Origin: Halococcus agarilyticus | GTDB taxonomy: Archaea; Halobacteriota; Halobacteria; Halobacteriales; Halococcaceae | Direction: 5' to 3' | Assembly: GCF_000334895.1 (NCBI RefSeq) | Contig: NZ_BAFM01000002.1 | Coordinates: 62,001 to 126,000, forward strand | Length of the DNA stretch: 64,000 nt | Shown: piece after piece, positions 1 to 8,304 of the stretch | Position numbering within the stretch: the stretch's first letter is position 1 | Layout of the letters: every line of letters starts with the position of its first letter | Made by a program: the position numbers and the translations under genes | Notes under the pieces: generated by a model | Told to the model about the DNA's origin: nothing | Databases searched by the model: none | The model's input: the letters and a program-made list of their open reading frames with translations, nothing else

Positions 1-2552
1 ACCGCGTCGCCGTCGAGCGTGACCGCCTCACCCTCGATGTCGAGTTCGATCGTGCCGTTCTCGTTCCTCTGGCGTTCGATTGCAGCAGGGTCGGCGGCTT
101 CGAGTGCGCCCACGACCGCACCCGCTCGATCGCGGAACTCGGGGCCGATCGTGCTGTGGTCGGGATCGACGCCGACGGCGACCATCTCGACGTCCGGCTC
201 GCCTGTCTCGATCTTCACCGGGGCGTTCACCGTCGCACTCAGGTCGCCGGTGTCGAGTTCGGCGATCCCGTCGGCGTAGACCTCGATCCGGTCGAGATCG
301 GCGTTGAGCGCCATTCCCTCGTCGGACTTCCACGCCCGGACCGCGCTCGCGACCGCGGCGATGCGTTCGCCGCGCGCCTCCGCGGCGTCGTCGGCGACGT
401 CGAGCGCGGGCCACGCGGCAGCGTGGACGCTGCCCGACGGGTCGGGCAGGTGGTGGTACGCCTCCTCGACGAGGAACGGCGAGAACGGCGCGAGCATCCG
501 GAGCGACGCCGAGAGCGTCGCCGAGAGCGCGTGGCGTGCGGCGTCGCGCTCGGCGTCGCTGCCCTCGTAGAGGCGGCCCTTGATGAGTTCGACGTAGTCG
601 TCGGCGAGGTCGTGCCAGACGAACTCCCGGAGCTTCCGGAGCGCGCGATCGAAGCGGTACTCGTCCATGTCGGCGGCGACCTCGTCGGCGACCCGCGCGC
701 ACCGCGAGAGGATCCAGCGGTCGGCGTCGGTGGCAGCCTCGTCGATCGCCCCCCCGTCGGCGGCCGTTGCAGCGGCGGTTTCGGCGTCGAGATGCCCGCT
801 CGCGAAGCGCGTGATGTTCCAGAGCTTCGTCAGGAAGCGCGACGCGCTCGTGACCTCCTTCGGCTGGAACTGGATGTCGCTCCCCGGCTGGCCGCCGAGG
901 GCGAGCGCCTGTCGAAAGGCGTCGGCGGAGTGCTCCTCGACGACCTCCTCGGGGGCGACCGAGTTGTCCTTCGACTTGCTCATCTTGTTGCCGTCAGCGC
1001 CCAGCACCATCCCGTTGATGAGCGCCTCGTCCCACGGTTTCTGGTCTTCGAGCGCGGCCGTTCGCAGGAGCGTGTAGAACGCCCACGTCCGGATGATCTC
1101 GTGGCCCTGCTCGCGGAGCTGCACGGGAGTGAAGTCGGCCTCGGGCCAGCCAGCGACGTGGAGCGCCGAGATCGACGAGTCCATCCAGGTGTCCATCACG
1201 TCGGTCTCGCCGGTCCACGCGTCCGCGCCGCAGTCGGGACAGTCACTTTGGGGTTCGTCCTCGGTCGGATCGGCCGGGAGCTCGTCCAGCTCGGCGACGT
1301 GCCAGTGGCCGCACTCCTCGCACGACCACGCCGGAATCGGGGTGGCGAACACGCGCTGGCGCGAAATCACCCAGTCCCACTCCATTCCCTCGGTCCACTC
1401 CTTGAGGCGGCCGTACATATGCTCGGGAATCCAGTCGACCTCCCGGGCTTTATCGAGGATTTCGTTCTGATCGACCCGGACGAACCACTGCTCCTTCGAG
1501 AGGATCTCGATCGGCGTGTCACACCGCCAGCACGCCCCGACCGACTGCTCGATCGGTTCCTCGTCCTGAAGGTACCCCTCCTTCTGGAGCGCGGTGCTGA
1601 TCTCCTCTTTGGCGTCGTCGATCGCGAGCCCGCCGAACTCCGGGACGCTCTCGTCGAGTCGGCCGTCCTCGGTCACGACGGCCCGAAGGTCGAGGTCGTA
1701 CTCCGCCCACCAGTCGACGTCCTGCTTGTCGCCGAAGGTGCAGATCATCACCGCGCCGGTGCCGAAGTCGCCGTCGACGTCCTCGCTCGCGACGAGTTCG
1801 ACCTCGTGGCCGAACAGCGGGACCTCGAAGGTGTCGCCAACCCGGCCCGCGTAGCGCTCGTCGTCGGGGTCGACCGCCATCCCGACGCAGGCCGCGAGCA
1901 GTTCGGGGCGGGTGGTGGCGATCTCGATCGCGTCGTTGTCGACACCCGGGAATCGGACCGTCGAGAGCGTTCCCTCGGCATCGACGTTCTCGACTTCGGC
2001 GTCGGCGATCGCGGTCTCACACCGCGGACACCAGTTCACGGGATGCTCGTCGCGGTGGACGTAGCCATTACTATGCATCTCGACGAACGAACGCTGGGTC
2101 TTCGCCCAGTACTCGGGGTCCATCGTGCGGTACTCCTGGGACCAGTCCTGGGAGAAGCCGAGCCACTGCATCGTCCCCTTCATCCCGTCGATCTTCCGTT
2201 CGGTGTGCTCGACGCACAGCTCCCGGAACTCCTCGCGCGGCACGTCCGTCCGCCGGATGTCGTGGTTCTCCTCGACTTTGACCTCCGTCGGGAGGCCGTG
2301 ACAGTCCCATCCCTGCGGGAAGGAGACGTTCTTGCCCTGCATTCGGTGGTAGCGCGCGGCGAAGTCCATGTAACTCCAGCCGAGCGCGTGCCCGATGTGG
2401 AGGTCGCCCGTCGGGTAGGGCGGGGGGGTGTCGATGACGTACTCGGTTGCGCCGTCGTCGTCATCGTAGCGGTACAGGTCGGACTCGTGCCACTCCTCGC
2501 GCCACTTGGCTTCGAGCGCGTCGGGATCGTAGGTTTCAGCTAGCTCTGTCAT
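1..2552 (-). CDS. valS: Valyl-tRNA synthetase, 3'-truncated by window edge
   Basis: Cytoplasmic class I aminoacyl-tRNA synthetase that charges tRNA-Val. The 850 codons present are the N-terminal and central parts; the C-terminal end of the anticodon-binding region lies before position 1. Translation from the ATG at 2552 gives the HIGH signature (HIGH, residues 52-55) and the KMSKS loop (residues 523-527, bases 972-986), both intact. Several CxxC pairs in the middle match zinc-binding insertions of archaeal ValRS. The opposite strand is also open for about 795 codons, but that is a GC-skew shadow. No obvious TATA box was found at the expected spacing. Confidence 0.97.
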
Positions 2553-2797
2553 GGGTCGTCTTTTCCGAATGCCTGCGGCTGGGTGAGTAACGGTGCCGAG
2601 AACGTGCAAGTCGGTGGTTCAGCGACGTACTACCGACGACATCACGCTCATGGCACCACTCATGCGAGTCCGTCTGATAAACGTTCGTGTTGGGCGACAC
2701 CGCTCCGATGTGCTCGTGAACGCTCGACGACTGCCGGCGCTCGTGTCGAGAGAGTGAGGGGCGTCAACGATTAGTACGCCAAGCGCTACCACTATTC

Positions 2798-3100
2798 ATG
2801 AACCTCCTGTTCCGCGTGCTGGTCGGCGCGTTCGTCTGCGTCGCGCCGACGGCGCTGTTCCTCGGCCTCTGGCACGGCCTTCAGCGGATGCAAGACGGCG
2901 AACTCGTCGAGCGGGTCGCGAGGAATCAGGGGGCGACCGTCGAGGATCTCGTGCCGGGCACGCAGTCGAGCGGGGAACACGACCTCGATTCGCGCGAGCG
3001 CCGCGCGCTGGAGCGGTCGCTCGCCGAGGGAACGTCGCCGTCGGTCGGGTCGCCCGCGAGTGACGAACGCCGGTCGAACCGCGGGCGAAATCCACCCTGA
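2798..3100 (+). CDS. Small haloarchaeal membrane protein
   Basis: A 100-residue protein of unknown function. It has one hydrophobic segment at about residues 4-25 followed by a charged, Arg/Glu-rich tail that is probably cytoplasmic. The helix-plus-acidic-tail layout and the position of the ATG suggest a real gene. It ends 44 nt before the 6-phosphogluconate dehydrogenase gene on the same strand, so co-transcription is possible. I do not recognise a named domain. Confidence 0.6.
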   Translation: MNLLFRVLVGAFVCVAPTALFLGLWHGLQRMQDGELVERVARNQGATVEDLVPGTQSSGEHDLDSRERRALERSLAEGTSPSVGSPASDERRSNRGRNPP

Positions 3101-3144
3101 CGCACAACCACAACCCCTACCTGCGCGCCCGCGGAGGGGCGGGT

Positions 3145-4041
3145 ATGCAACTGGGCGTCGTCGGACTCGGGCGGATGGGACGGATCGTGACCGAGCGCGT
3201 GCTCGCTGCGGGCCACGACGTGGTCGCCTTCGACGTGAACGAGGAGGCTGTCGCGACCGCCACAGCGGCGGGAGCCGAGCCGGCCGACTCCATCGGGGAC
3301 CTCGCCGACCGACTCGGGAGCGAGAAGCGGATCTGGCTGATGGTGCCCGCGGGCGACGCCATCGACGCCGCGCTCGGCGATCTCGAAACCCATCTCGACG
3401 AGGACGACGTGGTGATCGACGGTGGCAACTCACACTTCGAGGAATCTGTGCGGCGGGCCGACGCGACGCCGGCGGCGTACCTCGACTGTGGGACATCCGG
3501 GGGTCCCGCTGGCGCGGAACTCGGTTTCTCGCTGATGATCGGCGGGCCCGGATGGGCCTACGACGAGCTGACTCCGGTGTTCGACGCCGTGGCGACCGGG
3601 CCCGCAGGACACGCGAGGATGGGGCCCGCAGGTTCGGGCCACTACGTCAAGATGGTCCACAACGGCGTGGAGTACGCGCTGATGGAGGCCTACGGTGAGG
3701 GGTTCGAACTCCTCCACGACGGGCGGTACGATCTCGACCTCGAATCGGTCGCCCGGACCTGGAACAACGGCGCAGTCATCCGGTCGTGGCTGCTCGAACT
3801 CTGTGAGGAGGCGTTCCGCGAGGAGGGCGGTGATCTGGGGAGTGTGGCCGACCGCGTTGCGGGCGGTTCGACGGGAACGTGGACCGTCGAGGAGGCGCTC
3901 GCTCAGGAGATTCCGGTACCGCTGATCTACACCGCGCTCGCCGAGCGGTTCGGCTCGCGGGCCGACGAGGGTCGGTTCGCGCGGCGGCTCGCCAACCGTC
4001 TGCGATACGGGTTCGGTCGCCACGAGGTCGCCAGGCGGTAG
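3145..4041 (+). CDS. gnd: 6-phosphogluconate dehydrogenase (decarboxylating), short GndA type
   Basis: Oxidises 6-phosphogluconate to ribulose 5-phosphate with loss of CO2, supplying pentoses and reduced cofactor in the haloarchaeal oxidative pentose phosphate pathway. The 298-residue protein starts with a dinucleotide-binding GLGRMG loop (residues 7-12). It then has the DGGNS substrate segment, the SGGPAGAELG block and a KMVHNG stretch carrying the catalytic lysine. The length matches the short, usually NAD-linked GndA/YqeC branch rather than the 470-residue enzymes; cofactor choice is inferred from the family. A GT-rich repeat begins two bases after the stop codon. Confidence 0.93.
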   Translation: MQLGVVGLGRMGRIVTERVLAAGHDVVAFDVNEEAVATATAAGAEPADSIGDLADRLGSEKRIWLMVPAGDAIDAALGDLETHLDEDDVVIDGGNSHFEESVRRADATPAAYLDCGTSGGPAGAELGFSLMIGGPGWAYDELTPVFDAVATGPAGHARMGPAGSGHYVKMVHNGVEYALMEAYGEGFELLHDGRYDLDLESVARTWNNGAVIRSWLLELCEEAFREEGGDLGSVADRVAGGSTGTWTVEEALAQEIPVPLIYTALAERFGSRADEGRFARRLANRLRYGFGRHEVARR

Positions 4042-4043
4042 AC

Positions 4044-4137
4044 GGTCGCGGTGCAGTGGTGGTTGCGGTGTGGTGGCGGTGGCGGTTGCGGTGCAGTGGT
4101 GGTTGCGGTGGCGGTGGCGGTGGCGGTTGCGGTGCCT
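4044..4137 (+). repeat. GGTGG/GCGGT-rich simple repeat
   Basis: Degenerate G/T-rich tract directly after gnd. A 23-nt segment recurs at 4048-4070 and 4088-4110, followed by several GGTGGC triplet-like units. It has many G-runs of two and could form G-quadruplex-like structure. It abuts the dispersed repeat element that begins at 4136; similar tracts lie beside the copies near 33.5 and 36.9 kb. Confidence 0.75.
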
Positions 4138-4313
4138 GGCGGATGAAGGGCGAGGCGCGCGAGCGAACGGAGTGAGCGCGCGCCGTCGTTCCGCTTCGCT
4201 CCACGACGAGCCTCACGCTCGTTCCACTCGCGTGAGACGCCGAGGGCTTCGGCGTGCTGTGTGGTTGCGGAGGTGTTGGTGATCGACCGCGAGCGAACGC
4301 AGTGAGCGAGCGG
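4136..4313 (+). repeat. Dispersed intergenic element, copy D (diverged)
   Basis: This shares, in order, blocks of the element whose best copies are at 33292-33473 and 36992-37174: a CTGGCGGATGAAGGGCGAGG block, a CGAGGGCTTCGGCG block, GTGCTGTG, CGCGAGCGAACG and GTGAGCGAGCGGG. Between the blocks it is filled by other hairpins, including one with stem 4212-4218/4230-4236 and an 11-nt loop. It occupies most of the gene-free 4042-4530 interval, which otherwise holds more hairpins (stems 4331-4338/4358-4365, and CTTCCG-type at 4370-4388) and no supportable gene. Confidence 0.6.
4212..4236. repeat. Hairpin with conserved 11-nt loop
   Basis: Perfect 7-bp stem (4212-4218 with 4230-4236) around an 11-nt loop. 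On the minus strand the loop reads GAGTGGAACGA, fitting the loop consensus GARYGRARYGA seen at several other sites in this window with unrelated stems. Confidence 0.7.
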
Positions 4314-4502
4314 GCCGACGACTGACCGGAGTTCTCGTGAGCGACCGTAGGGAGCGAACGAGAGCACGGAAGAGCTTCGCTCTTCCGGAGGGAAGGAGGA
4401 GGCTTTTGATCCACGTTTTGCCAGCGAGCGAGTCGGCGAAGCCGATGAGCGAGCGCAGCAAAAGGTGGGCAGGCGAAAAGGTGGGTGGGGAGACCGATAG
4501 CT

Positions 4503-4511
4503 AGTTAAACG
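4503..4511 (+). promoter_or_regulatory. TATA-like box of the ferredoxin gene
   Basis: An AGTTAAAC sequence centred about 24 nt before the ATG at 4531, the spacing expected for a leaderless or near-leaderless haloarchaeal transcript. It stands out against the GC-rich surroundings. Confidence 0.5.
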
Positions 4512-4530
4512 GCGATTCCATAGCGCGGTC

Positions 4531-5115
4531 ATGGTCGAGGTGATCGGTCTCTCCATTGGGCTTTTGGCTGTGCTCGTCATGGTCGCACTACATTTCTCGC
4601 CAGGCACCGAACGGATCATCCCGGACGACATCTCCCAGGACGTGCTCGAACACCGTGCCGAGAGCGTCCCAGAGACCGACTTCCCCGAGCCGATGAACCG
4701 ATCGATCGGCGGCGGGGCCGCCCCGGCCGGCGCGGTCGGCGGTGGCGGCGAGGCGGAGGGCGAGCTCGCGGAGGGTGAAGCCGAAGCGGAGGAGCCGAGT
4801 CCGGCCGAGATTCCCGACGACGAGGCCGAGAGCTTCGAGGTCGAGTACGTGAAGGAGGGCGAGACGATCGAGGTCAAGGAGAACGAGACCCTCCTCGACG
4901 CCGGCGAGGACGAGGGCTGGGACCTGCCCTACGCCTGCCGACAGGGCCAGTGTGTCTCGTGTGGCGGCCAGGTCACGGACGGTCCCTCCGAGGACTATCT
5001 GGTCCACGACGGTCAGGAGATGCTCGACGAGAACGAACTCGGCGACGGCTACACGCTGACCTGCGTCGCGTACCCCACTGCCGACCTCTCGCTCGAAACC
5101 AGCGAGACACCCTGA
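4531..5115 (+). CDS. Membrane-anchored plant-type 2Fe-2S ferredoxin
   Basis: A 194-residue electron carrier. Residues 4-22 form a single hydrophobic anchor. Residues 55-100 are a low-complexity Gly/Ala then Glu/Pro linker, and residues 101-190 are a chloroplast-type ferredoxin domain. The cluster ligands are visible as Cys136, Cys141 and Cys144 (CxxxxCxxC) plus Cys178. Unlike the soluble halophilic ferredoxins of about 128 residues, this one should be tethered to the membrane with its cluster on a flexible acidic arm. Its redox partner is not evident from neighbours, which are tRNA-Arg downstream and non-coding repeats upstream. Confidence 0.9.
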   Translation: MVEVIGLSIGLLAVLVMVALHFSPGTERIIPDDISQDVLEHRAESVPETDFPEPMNRSIGGGAAPAGAVGGGGEAEGELAEGEAEAEEPSPAEIPDDEAESFEVEYVKEGETIEVKENETLLDAGEDEGWDLPYACRQGQCVSCGGQVTDGPSEDYLVHDGQEMLDENELGDGYTLTCVAYPTADLSLETSETP

Positions 5116-5139
5116 CCGACGCGAGCGACTTTCACAACG

Positions 5140-5147
5140 ACTATACC
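5140..5147 (+). promoter_or_regulatory. TATA-like box of tRNA-Arg
   Basis: ACTATACC centred about 28 nt before the first base of the mature tRNA at 5172. It lies just downstream of the ferredoxin stop codon. Confidence 0.55.
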
Positions 5148-5171
5148 GGTATCGTGGTTAGCGATGATCGT

Positions 5172-5244
5172 GGGCGCGTAGCTCAGTGGATAGAGTTCTT
5201 GGTTCCGGACCAAGACGTCGCGGGTTCAAATCCCGTCGCGCCCG
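5172..5244 (+). tRNA. tRNA-Arg (anticodon CCG)
   Basis: A 73-nt cloverleaf with no intron. The 7-bp acceptor stem GGGCGCG pairs with CGCGCCC, and the discriminator base is G at 5244. The anticodon stem CTTGG/CCAAG holds the loop TTCCGGA, so the anticodon is CCG (Arg, codon CGG). The T-arm is GCGGG/CCCGT with loop TTCAAAT. The CCA end is not encoded. Its last 22 nt are repeated exactly at 5400-5421. Confidence 0.97.
5223..5244 (+). repeat. Attachment-like repeat, left copy (tRNA-Arg 3' end)
   Basis: The final 22 nt of tRNA-Arg (T-loop through discriminator) recur perfectly at 5400-5421, 177 nt away in the same orientation. Direct repeats of a tRNA 3' end are the usual scar of tyrosine-recombinase integration. 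No integrase lies nearby, so any element has been lost or this is a remnant. Confidence 0.6.
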
Positions 5245-5322
5245 CTTCGTTTGCGACGAACGGACGTGAGGAGCAACGCGAGGACCGCGCTGGATTTGAA
5301 TCAGGAAGTGAAGCGAGCGGCG

Positions 5323-5349
5323 GGAGGCGCGAGCGAGGCGAGCGCCTCC
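5323..5349. repeat. Hairpin with conserved 11-nt loop
   Basis: Perfect 8-bp stem (GGAGGCGC with GCGCCTCC) around the loop GAGCGAGGCGA. A weaker relative with a 5-bp stem and loop GAGCAAGGCGA follows at 5357-5377. It lies between the two copies of the tRNA-Arg 3' end. Confidence 0.75.
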
Positions 5350-5399
5350 GAAGCGAACGGCGAGCAAGGCGAGCCGTGAGCAGCGGGCGAAACGACCGT

Positions 5400-5421
5400 G
5401 GTTCAAATCCCGTCGCGCCCG
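5400..5421 (+). repeat. Attachment-like repeat, right copy
   Basis: Exact 22-nt duplicate of the tRNA-Arg 3' end. No other tRNA arms precede it, so it is not a second tRNA gene. A T-run follows six bases later. Confidence 0.65.
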
Positions 5422-5425
5422 AGTA

Positions 5426-5434
5426 CCTTTTTAC
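5426..5434 (+). terminator. T-run, possible archaeal terminator
   Basis: Five consecutive T residues (5428-5432) after the duplicated tRNA end. Short T-runs terminate archaeal transcription. If the duplication moved the original 3' flank of the tRNA, this would be its terminator. Confidence 0.35.
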
Positions 5435-5588
5435 TTCGTCGGGTGCGCTCGCTCGTTTCACTCGCTCGCCCACCACTCTCTGCTCACGGGCGGCGCGAGG
5501 CGGCTTCGCCGCCTCGAACTCGCGGCGCGTAGCGCCGCACATGGCCCGTTCGCACGGTACGAGGGACGCGGAGCGTCCCTCGCTCCTC

Positions 5589-5723
5589 GCAAAAAACTAC
5601 GCTGAAAACTTCCCGCTCGTTCGCTCCCTACGGTCGCTCACTCACGATACAGTTGCTTGCCCGCCGCAACCGCACCGCCGAAGCCCTCGGCCCGCCCCGC
5701 GGGCCTCGCCCTTCATCCGCCAG
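5589..5723 (-). repeat. Dispersed intergenic element, copy C (diverged)
   Basis: Same block order as the 33292-33473 copy: GCAAAAAACT, a CCCGCTCGTTCGCTC/CTACGG block, CACCGCCGAAGCCCTCGGCCCG, then GGGCCTCGCCCTTCATCCGCCAG. The middle has diverged. It lies opposite in orientation to copy D, so the two bracket the ferredoxin-tRNA segment. Confidence 0.6.
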
Positions 5724-5861
5724 GAAAACAAAGCTCTCGTAGGCCTTGCTCCGTGGTTCGAAACACGTAGGTCGTCTTTCGTCACTACAACACGACTTTC
5801 CCGTTTCGAGTGACTCCGTTCACCAAGGCATCAGGCACCGCCGCCGAATCGCGCTGCGAAC

Positions 5862-7787
5862 TCAGTCGAGAAACGCCGGCGCGGTCAGCTTCTCGTCGCG
5901 CTCGGCTTCGAGCGCCGCCCGGAACTCGTCGAGTTCGACGCCGTCACGCTCACGTTCCTCGCGATCACGCACCGAGACGGTGCCCGCCTCCGCCTCGGTG
6001 TCGCCGACGATCAGCATGTACGGCACCCGGTCGTCGTGGCCCGCCCGGATCTTCCGCCCGACCGTCCACGAGCGGGTTTCGACCTCGGTCCGGAACCCGT
6101 CGAGTTCTGCGGCGACCGACTCGGCGTACTCGAGGTTGTCGTCGCTCACCGGCAGCACGCGGACCTGTTCGGGCGCGAGCCAGAGCGGGAAGTTACCCTT
6201 GTAGTGTTCGATCAAAACACCCATGAACCGCTCGAAGCTCCCCAACAGCGCGCGGTGGATCGTCACCGGGCGGTGCTCCTCGTTGTCCTCGCCGACGTAG
6301 GCCAGATCAAGGCGCTCGGGGATGTTGAAGTCTACCTGTACCGTTCCGATCGTCCACTCGCGATCGAGTGCGTCTCGGGCGTCGAGACCGATCTTCGGTC
6401 CGTAGAAGGCCGCCTCACCGTCCTCGATTTCGTAGTCGAGACCTTCGGCTTCGAGTGCATCCACCAGTGCGTCGGTGGCCTGGTCCCAGATCTCGTCACT
6501 CCCGATGGCGTTGTCACCCTGGGTTTCGAGTTTGTAGAGCACTTCGAGGTCGAACTGGCTGTAGATCTCCTCGATCACCCGGAGGGTCTGGGTGATCTCG
6601 TCTTCGAGTTGGTCGGGACGAACGAACGCGTGGCCGTCGTCCTGGGTCATACCCCTGACCCGGAGCATCCCCGAGAGTTCGCCCGACTGCTCGTTGCGAT
6701 AGACGGTACCGAACTCCGAGTACCGCATCGGGAGGTCACGGTACGACCACCGCTCGCGGTCGTAGAGATGGGCGTGGTTCGCGCAGTTCATCGGTTTCAG
6801 GCCGTACTCGAAGTCGTCCTGCTCCCACGCGAACATCTCGCCCTCGGCCGTGAAGTTGTCGTAGTGCCCCGTCGGTTTCCAGATCTCAGTCTTGTTGAGC
6901 TCGGGCGTCCAGACCTCCTCATACCCGAGTTCGTCGTTCATCTCTCTGATGTACTCCTCCAGCTCGCGGCGGATCGTCATTCCGTTAGGATGGTAGTGGA
7001 CGCTGCCTGGCGAGTGGTCGGGCACGCTGAAGAGATCCATCTCCTGACCGATCTTGCGGTGGTCGCGTTCCTTTGCCTCCTCTCGCCGGTCGAGGAACGC
7101 CTCCAAGTCGTCCTCGCTCGGGAAGGCCGTCCCGTAGACCCGCGTGAGCGATTCGTTGTCCTCCTCGCCGCGCCAGTACGCCGCGGAGGTTTCGAGCAGC
7201 GCGAACCCGCCGATCTCGCCGGTCGAGTCGATGTGTGGTCCCTGACAGAGATCGAAGAAGTCACCCTGTTCGTAGAAACTCACGGGGTCCTCGCCCGCCG
7301 CCTCCGCTTCGAGGATGTCGCGCTTGAACCGATTGTCGGCGTAGATCTCGAAGGCTTCATCCCTGGGATATTCGATCCGTTCGATCGGGAGGTCCGCGTC
7401 GATGATGGTCTGGGCCTCCTCGGCGATCGCCGCCAGGTCCTCGCTGTCGAGATCGACGTTCGCGATATCGTAGTAGAATCCCTCGTCGGTCCACGGCCCG
7501 ATGGTGAGCTTCGCCTCCGGATGGAGCCGTCCGAGTGCCTGGGCGAAGACGTGAGCCGCTGAGTGCCGGAGCACGTCGAGATACTCCGCCGAGTCCTCGG
7601 TGACGATCTCCAATCGACTGTCCTCGGTGATCGGTTCGGCGGCGGCGACGAGATCGCCGTCCACGACCCCGGCGATCGTGTCGTTCCCGAGCCCCGGGCC
7701 GATCTCGTAGGCCACGTCCTCGACCGTCGAACCGGGCTCCATCGGGAGTTCGGAACCGTCCGGCAGCGTCACGACGACATCGCTCAT
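5862..7787 (-). CDS. thrS: Threonyl-tRNA synthetase, bacterial-type architecture
   Basis: Class II synthetase that charges tRNA-Thr, 641 residues. A TGS domain fills residues 1-62. The editing (SAD) domain follows, with its HSAAH zinc/editing motif at 75-79, and then the class II catalytic core and C-terminal anticodon-binding domain. This bacterial-type N-terminus is typical of haloarchaea; many other archaea have a different, DTD-like editing domain. The ATG at 7787 was preferred over an upstream in-frame extension of 107 codons, because it starts the TGS domain exactly and lies 27 nt from a TATA-like box. Confidence 0.97.
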
Positions 7788-7810
7788 GGGTTGGGTAGGT
7801 GCCACGCCCG

Positions 7811-7818
7811 GGATAAGC
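7811..7818 (-). promoter_or_regulatory. TATA-like box of thrS
   Basis: GCTTATCC on the minus strand, centred 27 nt from the ATG at 7787, consistent with a leaderless transcript. It supports the short start of thrS. Confidence 0.6.
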
Positions 7819-7953
7819 CTGTTGAGACGACCGAACCCCGACGCCGGCTGCTGCCCTCGGTGTCGATGGGCAGAGCCGGCACCCGCAGAACAGACTCGGT
7901 CGCCACGTCGTGTTCGGGGGTCGTGACGCTGGTGTCGTGCGCGAGGCGACCGC

Positions 7954-8304
7954 TCAGACTGCCGTTCCCGACAGGCGGAGCAGCTGGGCGGCGCGGTCCG
8001 CCGTGGCGAGCAACACCTCCTGAAGGGTGGGGGGCGCGTCGATCCGGAGCTCCGCGAGCACCGACTCCGGCAGCCACAGCGTGTCCTCGGGCACGCCATC
8101 GTCCCCACCGACCGCGAGGTGGCTGGTCGAGACCTTCATCACGAGCGGGAGATCGGTGCGCTCGATCCCTTCGCCCTCGGCGTACAGCGCCGCGTTGAGC
8201 CGCTCGTGAGTCGCCCGCTGGATGAGCGCGCGCGACCCGTCGCGTGGGTGGGGTTCGATGGAGAGCCGACCAAGGTAGTAGCCGCGCGAGAACCGTTCGA
8301 ACAT
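7954..8304 (-). CDS. Haloarchaeal protein, DUF5802-like
   Basis: A 116-residue soluble protein starting [14 protein letters not shown]. The start resembles what I recall of the haloarchaeal family DUF5802; the family name is from memory and uncertain. The first 25 residues are aromatic and basic, followed by a small alpha/beta-looking domain. An in-frame ATG five codons upstream (8319) is possible, but a TTATTA box at 8335-8340 places the transcription start near 8310, which favours 8304. No function can be assigned. Confidence 0.65.

Follow-up and report, generated by a model that had tools for sequence, protein, structure and literature searches.

A probable tRNA-linked repeat behind tRNA-Arg(CCG) of Halococcus agarilyticus and a family of such units in haloarchaea

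The window, i.e. the whole stretch of 64,000 nucleotides of Halococcus agarilyticus DNA that was analyzed, contains a tRNA-Arg(CCG) gene whose 3′ end is repeated a short distance downstream. The upstream neighbour of the tRNA gene is a gene with a Fer2 domain (PF00111, 4531-5115), and downstream of the repeat the opposite strand carries an open reading frame (5862-8108) which, judged by its translation, encodes a putative threonyl-tRNA synthetase. A mechanical open reading frame (4950-5813) spans the region of the repeat, with nothing that flags it as a gene. The tRNA gene and the parts of the unit behind it are as follows:

5172 to 5244, plus strand: tRNA-Arg(CCG) gene, host of the unit (ARAGORN 5172-5245; Rfam RF00005, 64.7 bits, 73-nt match)
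5223 to 5244, plus strand: DR1, the final 22 nt of the tRNA from the T-loop side to the discriminator (repeat search; sharp edges in 109 first units)
5245 to 5283, plus strand: HP1, a hairpin abutting the tRNA end, whose stem has tandem G.A mismatches (fold; stem covariation in 74 units)
5255 to 5274, plus strand: core of HP1, GACGAACGGACGTGAGGAGC (6 places in the Halococcus agarilyticus genome at up to three mismatches)
5286 to 5303, plus strand: IR, part of the tRNA 3′ end in inverted orientation, with a 12-nt arm at 5292-5303 (inverted-repeat pair; fold; follows the host tRNA across the family)
5286 to 5417, plus strand: HP2, a long hairpin with IR and DR2 as its stem and the variable inner part as its top (fold of the insert)
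5323 to 5349, plus strand: inner hairpin with the 11-nt loop GAGCGAGGCGA at 5331-5341 (sequence and fold)
5357 to 5377, plus strand: inner hairpin with the 11-nt loop GAGCAAGGCGA at 5362-5372 (sequence and fold)
5400 to 5421, plus strand: DR2, the second copy of the tRNA 3′ end (repeat search)
5428 to 5432, plus strand: run of five T, probable terminator shared by the tRNA and the unit (position of runs of at least four T in orthologues)

The two copies of the 22-nt repeat GGTTCAAATCCCGTCGCGCCCG (5223-5244 and 5400-5421) lie on the same strand without a mismatch, 177 nt apart from start to start and separated by 155 nt. Even at up to three mismatches, these are the only two occurrences in the 64-kb window, compared to an expectation of 0.01, which confirms the duplicated tRNA end reported in the first-pass annotation. 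The two hairpins with 11-nt loops described there between the repeats are present as well, while HP1 (5245-5283), the inverted partial copy (5292-5303) and the T-run (5428-5432) after the second copy had been overlooked.

The repeat in the window is one instance of a family, each unit of which stands behind a tRNA gene. When the region was searched in 60 genomes, matches at other tRNA genes were obtained that were confined to the final portion of the tRNA and the 60 nt following it. The anatomy common to the units, as read behind tRNA-Arg, -Ser, -Asp, -Lys and -Thr genes, comprises the tRNA end (DR1), HP1, IR, variable GA-rich inner hairpins and DR2, where IR pairs with DR2. Rfam finds 42 tRNA genes in Halococcus agarilyticus, 41 of which passed the script used for counting second copies. 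Fifteen of these 41 are followed within 230 nt by another copy of their own 3′ end (at least 18 of 22 nt), whereas only 23 of 1560 mismatched comparisons, made with the downstream region of a tRNA gene of another isotype, gave such a result. Roughly one in three tRNA genes of this genome is thus followed by a member of the family. For other genera of the Halobacteriales and for the remainder of the phylum, the sampled tRNAs were mostly high-scoring and not a random selection; second copies were detected at 11 of 38 tRNAs inside the order (74 of 1114 mismatched comparisons) and at 2 of 51 outside it (19 of 2056), both of the latter belonging to one locus with adjacent tRNA genes. Rates of occupancy are derived from these 41, 38 and 51 tRNAs only, unlike the enriched set of units described below. 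One of the 11 matches in the order, at a tRNA-Asn gene (L217), resembles a different hairpin array. Behind tRNA-Asn in this locus and behind tRNA-Asn(GTT) in two loci of Halococcus agarilyticus (L059 and L081), short, near-perfect hairpins are joined by fragments resembling the tRNA's own GC-rich end; these arrays may represent another type of tRNA-linked array.

The core of HP1 (20 nt with one degenerate base) was found exactly in 100 stretches among 84,980 bacterial and archaeal genomes, and all of the 80 stretches that bear a title are haloarchaeal. These 80 loci contain 94 HP1 matches, 60 of which start no more than 11 nt from a tRNA end and 27 more less than 1 kb away. The other seven lie farther off or have no upstream tRNA in the locus; they still follow a stretch resembling a tRNA end. 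No match was obtained for the core in 2.9 million viral contigs, nor for the whole unit of the window in phage or plasmid collections. A known Rfam family was rejected as the identity of the unit, since a scan of 20 unit loci revealed nothing but tRNA above the cut-off. Searches of an open-access library listed no description of such units in archaea.

Among 192 tRNAs, 114 bear units; the 152 units present there form an enriched set, most of them coming from loci fetched by their match to the window or to the HP1 pattern; similarity to the acceptor end was required and loci L051 to L056 were left out. After removal of 13 units with a repeat identity below 17 of 22 and of five duplicates, 134 distinct units (DR2 at least 17/22) remained, whose inserts measure 65 to 213 nt (median 115). 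They recur behind 36 tRNA labels in many genera, and none of the units read contains a protein gene. Among 109 first units, the two copies agree at a rate of 0.89 to 1.0 within the 22 nt, compared to 0.43 and 0.42 for the bases immediately flanking them. Tandem arrays of the type repeat-unit-repeat were detected in L031, L102 and L161.

The insert of the window (177 nt) yielded a folding z score of -3.35 for the tRNA-sense strand and of -1.28 for the complement; for 60 sampled units, the mean values were -3.7 and -2.3, respectively. In 74 of the 134 units, HP1 stems have on average 5.80 pairs, compared to 4.63 (at most 4.97) in 500 swaps of the 3′ sides, where the core of HP1, though not its outer stem, was a selection criterion for part of the set. 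In the middle of the tandem G.A mismatches, the pair is C-G, replaced by G-C in a few units. The longest complement to DR2 is 8.7 nt in the body of the same unit, 6.9 nt when the DR2 of another tRNA is used and 5.5 nt in shuffled bodies. For the tRNA together with its unit, the predicted minimum-energy fold pairs DR2 with the 5′ acceptor strand of the tRNA, which may follow simply from the duplication. Downstream of tRNA-Val(TAC) of Halococcus agarilyticus (L070), a short unit with an inverted HP1 was noted, the sole inverted case seen.

With regard to transcription, the first run of at least four T at the Arg locus lies 4 nt behind the tRNA in genome G008, which has no unit there, and 5 to 7 nt behind DR2 in the three species with a unit, none of which shows such a run inside it. 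The position of this run just behind DR2 makes it probable that the unit is co-transcribed with the tRNA, and the sequences suggest that it is placed between tRNA-Arg(CCG) and the probable terminator of this gene. Family-wide, a similar test gave a weak signal (37 of 197 windows in the unit bodies, compared to 31 of 98 windows after DR2).

Orthologous sites differ in whether they contain a unit. At the locus of the window, G002 (L002) has a unit of 102 nt and G008 (L004) has no insert, the flanks being 94% and 89% identical; a unit of 98 nt is present in G006. The site behind tRNA-Leu(GAG) is occupied in three of nine species, with two identical tandem units in G000 and one unit each in G002 and G003, and empty in G001, G004, G005, G007, G008 and G009. 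For tRNA-His, two of nine sites are occupied (G000 and G006) and seven are empty, while for tRNA-Ile, units are present in G000, G004 and G008 and the other sites are empty or degraded. In G006, a second, apparently complete tRNA-Ile follows 102 nt behind the first in place of a unit (L300; this stretch contains N). Where orthologous sites are occupied, HP1 or the inner parts differ between them.

Taken together, the unit of the window is probably an archaeal tRNA-linked repeat, i.e. a small gene-less cassette inserted exactly at the end of tRNA-Arg(CCG) and ahead of the probable terminator of this gene. A possible, on the whole rather unlikely explanation is that it is a fixed functional RNA, a processing or regulatory trailer that forms part of the host gene, is maintained by selection and does not move. 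The conserved folding, the covariation in HP1, the complementarity of IR and DR2, the T-run behind DR2 and the occurrence throughout the order would agree with such a trailer. However, species of one genus differ in the presence of a unit at the same tRNA and, where both have one, in its HP1 or inner parts, indicating that the unit is dispensable and turns over. In the first-pass annotation, a second copy at the same distance in distant genera had been named as the sign of a fixed role; copies do exist there, but at variable distances.

When the nearest unit was determined by HP1 and, separately, by the inner part, the acceptor ends of the two units differed in 108 of 123 cases, from which it follows that HP1 and the inner parts circulate among tRNAs. 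In the remaining 15 of 123 cases the acceptor end was the same, more than the 1.8% expected, and part of the similarity between units is thus due to inheritance at the same tRNA. Judged by sequence, DR2 and IR match the host tRNA, whereas HP1 and the inner parts are common to different tRNAs. Behind tRNAs with the T-loop TTCAAAT, IR contains ATTTGAA in 51 units, ATTCGAA in seven and neither of them in 22; behind those with TTCGAAT, ATTCGAA was found in 21 units, ATTTGAA in one and neither in 12. The part of IR that faces the acceptor stem fits its own tRNA modestly, with a mean percentile of 0.71 compared to 0.49, 0.54 and 0.56 for control stretches, and IR is unrecognisable in 20 of the 152 units. 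A reading of IR as a tRNA-primed, retroelement-like primer-binding site was dropped because of the weak fit to the acceptor end and the wrong orientation of HP1. At different tRNAs, DR2 carries one extra base in its T-loop part (L013, L102, L109, L117, L169 and L196, and also L156, L182 and L131). These variants (GTTCACAATCC, GTTCAATATCC and GTTCATAATCC) have an intact or nearly intact acceptor part, and the extra base would give a single bulged base in HP2.

The first-pass annotation had interpreted the duplication as an integration scar. In such a case, a virus or plasmid would have entered the tRNA gene by means of a tyrosine recombinase and later been deleted, leaving attL, attR and bits of its ends. 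Precise insertion at the tRNA 3′ end, the direct repeat and the existence of occupied and empty sites speak for this origin, and the first element of the interpretation, insertion at the tRNA gene, is borne out by the comparison of G008 with G002. The second element, a lost virus or plasmid, is improbable. According to the first-pass annotation, a relative with a virus or plasmid integrated at this locus and an integrase gene would confirm an attachment site, but G002 and G006 contain only the short units and G008 none. Random decay is not expected to result in a uniform two-hairpin anatomy or in an IR, nor does it agree with identical tandem units at the Leu-GAG site, with one HP1 behind many tRNAs and with the lack of matches in viral, phage and plasmid collections. 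Moreover, the six integrase matches in the Halococcus agarilyticus genome are located on contigs C5, C25, C29, C31 and C39, none of which harbors a unit-bearing tRNA.

On the other hand, real integrases occur next to sequences of this kind. A gene with a phage-integrase domain (Pfam) is located directly next to the partial tRNA end in front of HP1 in both L140 and L179, and in L146 (reverse strand, 2070-6650) an island of approximately 4.5 kb extends from tRNA-Thr(GGT) with its unit to a longer copy of tRNA-Thr with HP1. By eye, open reading frames of this island were assigned to metallo-beta-lactamase-fold, MATE-type and Lrp-type proteins, and no integrase was seen among them. These loci indicate that ordinary elements also target such tRNAs. 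In L102 (Halomicrococcus gelatinilyticus, reverse strand, approximately 2240-5340), three tandem units behind tRNA-Arg are followed by about 2.7 kb of other DNA and then by a copy of the tRNA end with HP1, i.e. by an insertion inside the array. As a caution for annotation, a duplicated tRNA end in haloarchaea is by itself no evidence of a lost virus or plasmid.

There is a similarly small chance that the insertion of the cassette behind the tRNA, together with the duplication of the target, is due to an integrase of the Cas1 kind, known from casposons and CRISPR systems. Both the repeat-unit-repeat arrays and a duplicated target that extends as far as the tRNA 3′ end would fit such an activity, and the part of PMC4046053 cited here mentions five euryarchaeal casposons whose target sites overlap tRNA genes at the 3′ end. 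However, in the same part of this source the targets overlap the tRNA by only 4 to 7 nt, compared to 22 nt in the haloarchaeal units, and the host-fitted IR would be left unexplained. Tandem duplication of the tRNA end through slippage or unequal crossing-over is most improbable, the identical tandem units at the Leu-GAG site notwithstanding, since HP1 and the inner part are not derived from the tRNA and are common to different tRNAs and genera.

For the tRNA-linked repeat favored here, the following course is proposed. The pre-tRNA would include the unit, which 3′ processing would release as an RNA with two hairpins. The unit would spread as a non-autonomous cassette that uses tRNA 3′ ends as insertion sites and depends on an enzyme supplied in trans. 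As points against this course, no enzyme was found, and an ordinary tyrosine recombinase would hardly yield a perfect, host-specific DR2 at many tRNAs. Insertion would duplicate the end of the host tRNA and thereby create DR2, whereupon IR might be adjusted through selection for the folding of HP2 or through correction templated by the hairpin. We propose that the need for HP2 to fold maintains the complementarity of IR and DR2. A more far-reaching model, which we regard as unlikely, sees in the unit a mobile, protein-free RNA/DNA cassette that refits itself to the tRNA gene it has entered. Direct and inverted copies of the tRNA 3′ end would be parts of a design common to haloarchaea and enterobacteria, and DR2, by competing for the 5′ acceptor strand, may serve as a switch in the maturation of the tRNA.

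Among known systems, the attachment sites of archaeal tyrosine recombinases at tRNA genes, where insertion is precise and the tRNA is kept intact according to the section of PMC8371274 used here, resemble the units in that the tRNA 3′ end is directly repeated where the precise insertion has taken place. The units differ in lacking an integrase or other element genes, in their size of only 65 to 213 nt and in possessing an inverted copy inside the unit that matches the host tRNA. Casposons likewise insert at tRNA gene ends with target duplication, as stated in the portion of PMC4046053 considered. By contrast, the haloarchaeal unit is gene-less and overlaps the tRNA over a far longer distance, and terminal inverted repeats of the casposon type were not seen. 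The 155 nt between the copies in the window are too small for Cas1-solo and PolB genes, which are thus ruled out inside this unit. Integron cassettes with an attC hairpin form arrays in which each cassette ends in a structured site mimicking the insertion site. The units may resemble them in both respects, but here the site is the end of the host tRNA itself.

The closest known kind are the tRNA-linked repeats (TLRs) of Escherichia coli (tyrT/tyrV rttR, argQZYV and rrA/rrB/rrF); Rfam includes an rtT family. According to the sections of PMC8144298 drawn upon here, 22 TLRs have been described at ten loci, with one to five per locus, and 18 to 19 bp of each are identical to the 3′ end of the upstream tRNA or rRNA gene. 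TLRs have been known in E. coli since 1978. The same sections state that they were without known function before this work, and that three of them (rrA/rrB/rrF) are transcribed, processed with the upstream RNA and bind Hfq and CsrA. In the haloarchaeal unit, too, the 3′ end equals the end of the upstream gene (22/22 in the window), and units stand behind tRNA genes at several loci (15/41) in one to several tandem copies. At tyrT/tyrV of E. coli K-12, the 19-nt copies are present, and inside each of three tandem units 10 nt are able to pair with the second copy without a mismatch (frequency in shuffled sequences 0 to 0.005); in the two remaining tyr gaps, the complement has 8 nt (0.02 and 0.035). 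In the arg cluster, three of six gaps hold a whole tRNA and are uninformative on TLRs. The three pure units of argQ-V revealed 8 nt in one case (0.025) and exact runs of 4 to 5 nt in the other two, and in the Leu stretch only neighbouring tRNA genes were seen. By analogy, the direct copy and the pairing of IR with DR2 thus appear to be a design common, at least partly, to the tyr TLRs of E. coli and the haloarchaeal units; the comparison is one of anatomy only. Differences concern the length of the direct copy (22 nt compared to 18 to 19), the haloarchaeal tRNA genes, which as read here encode no CCA, HP1 with its tandem G.A mismatches, and the occurrence at about a third of all tRNA genes and in many genera. 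With an order-wide archaeal family that comprises occupied and empty sites, arrays and an IR fitted to the host tRNA, the origin, movement and function of TLRs become testable.
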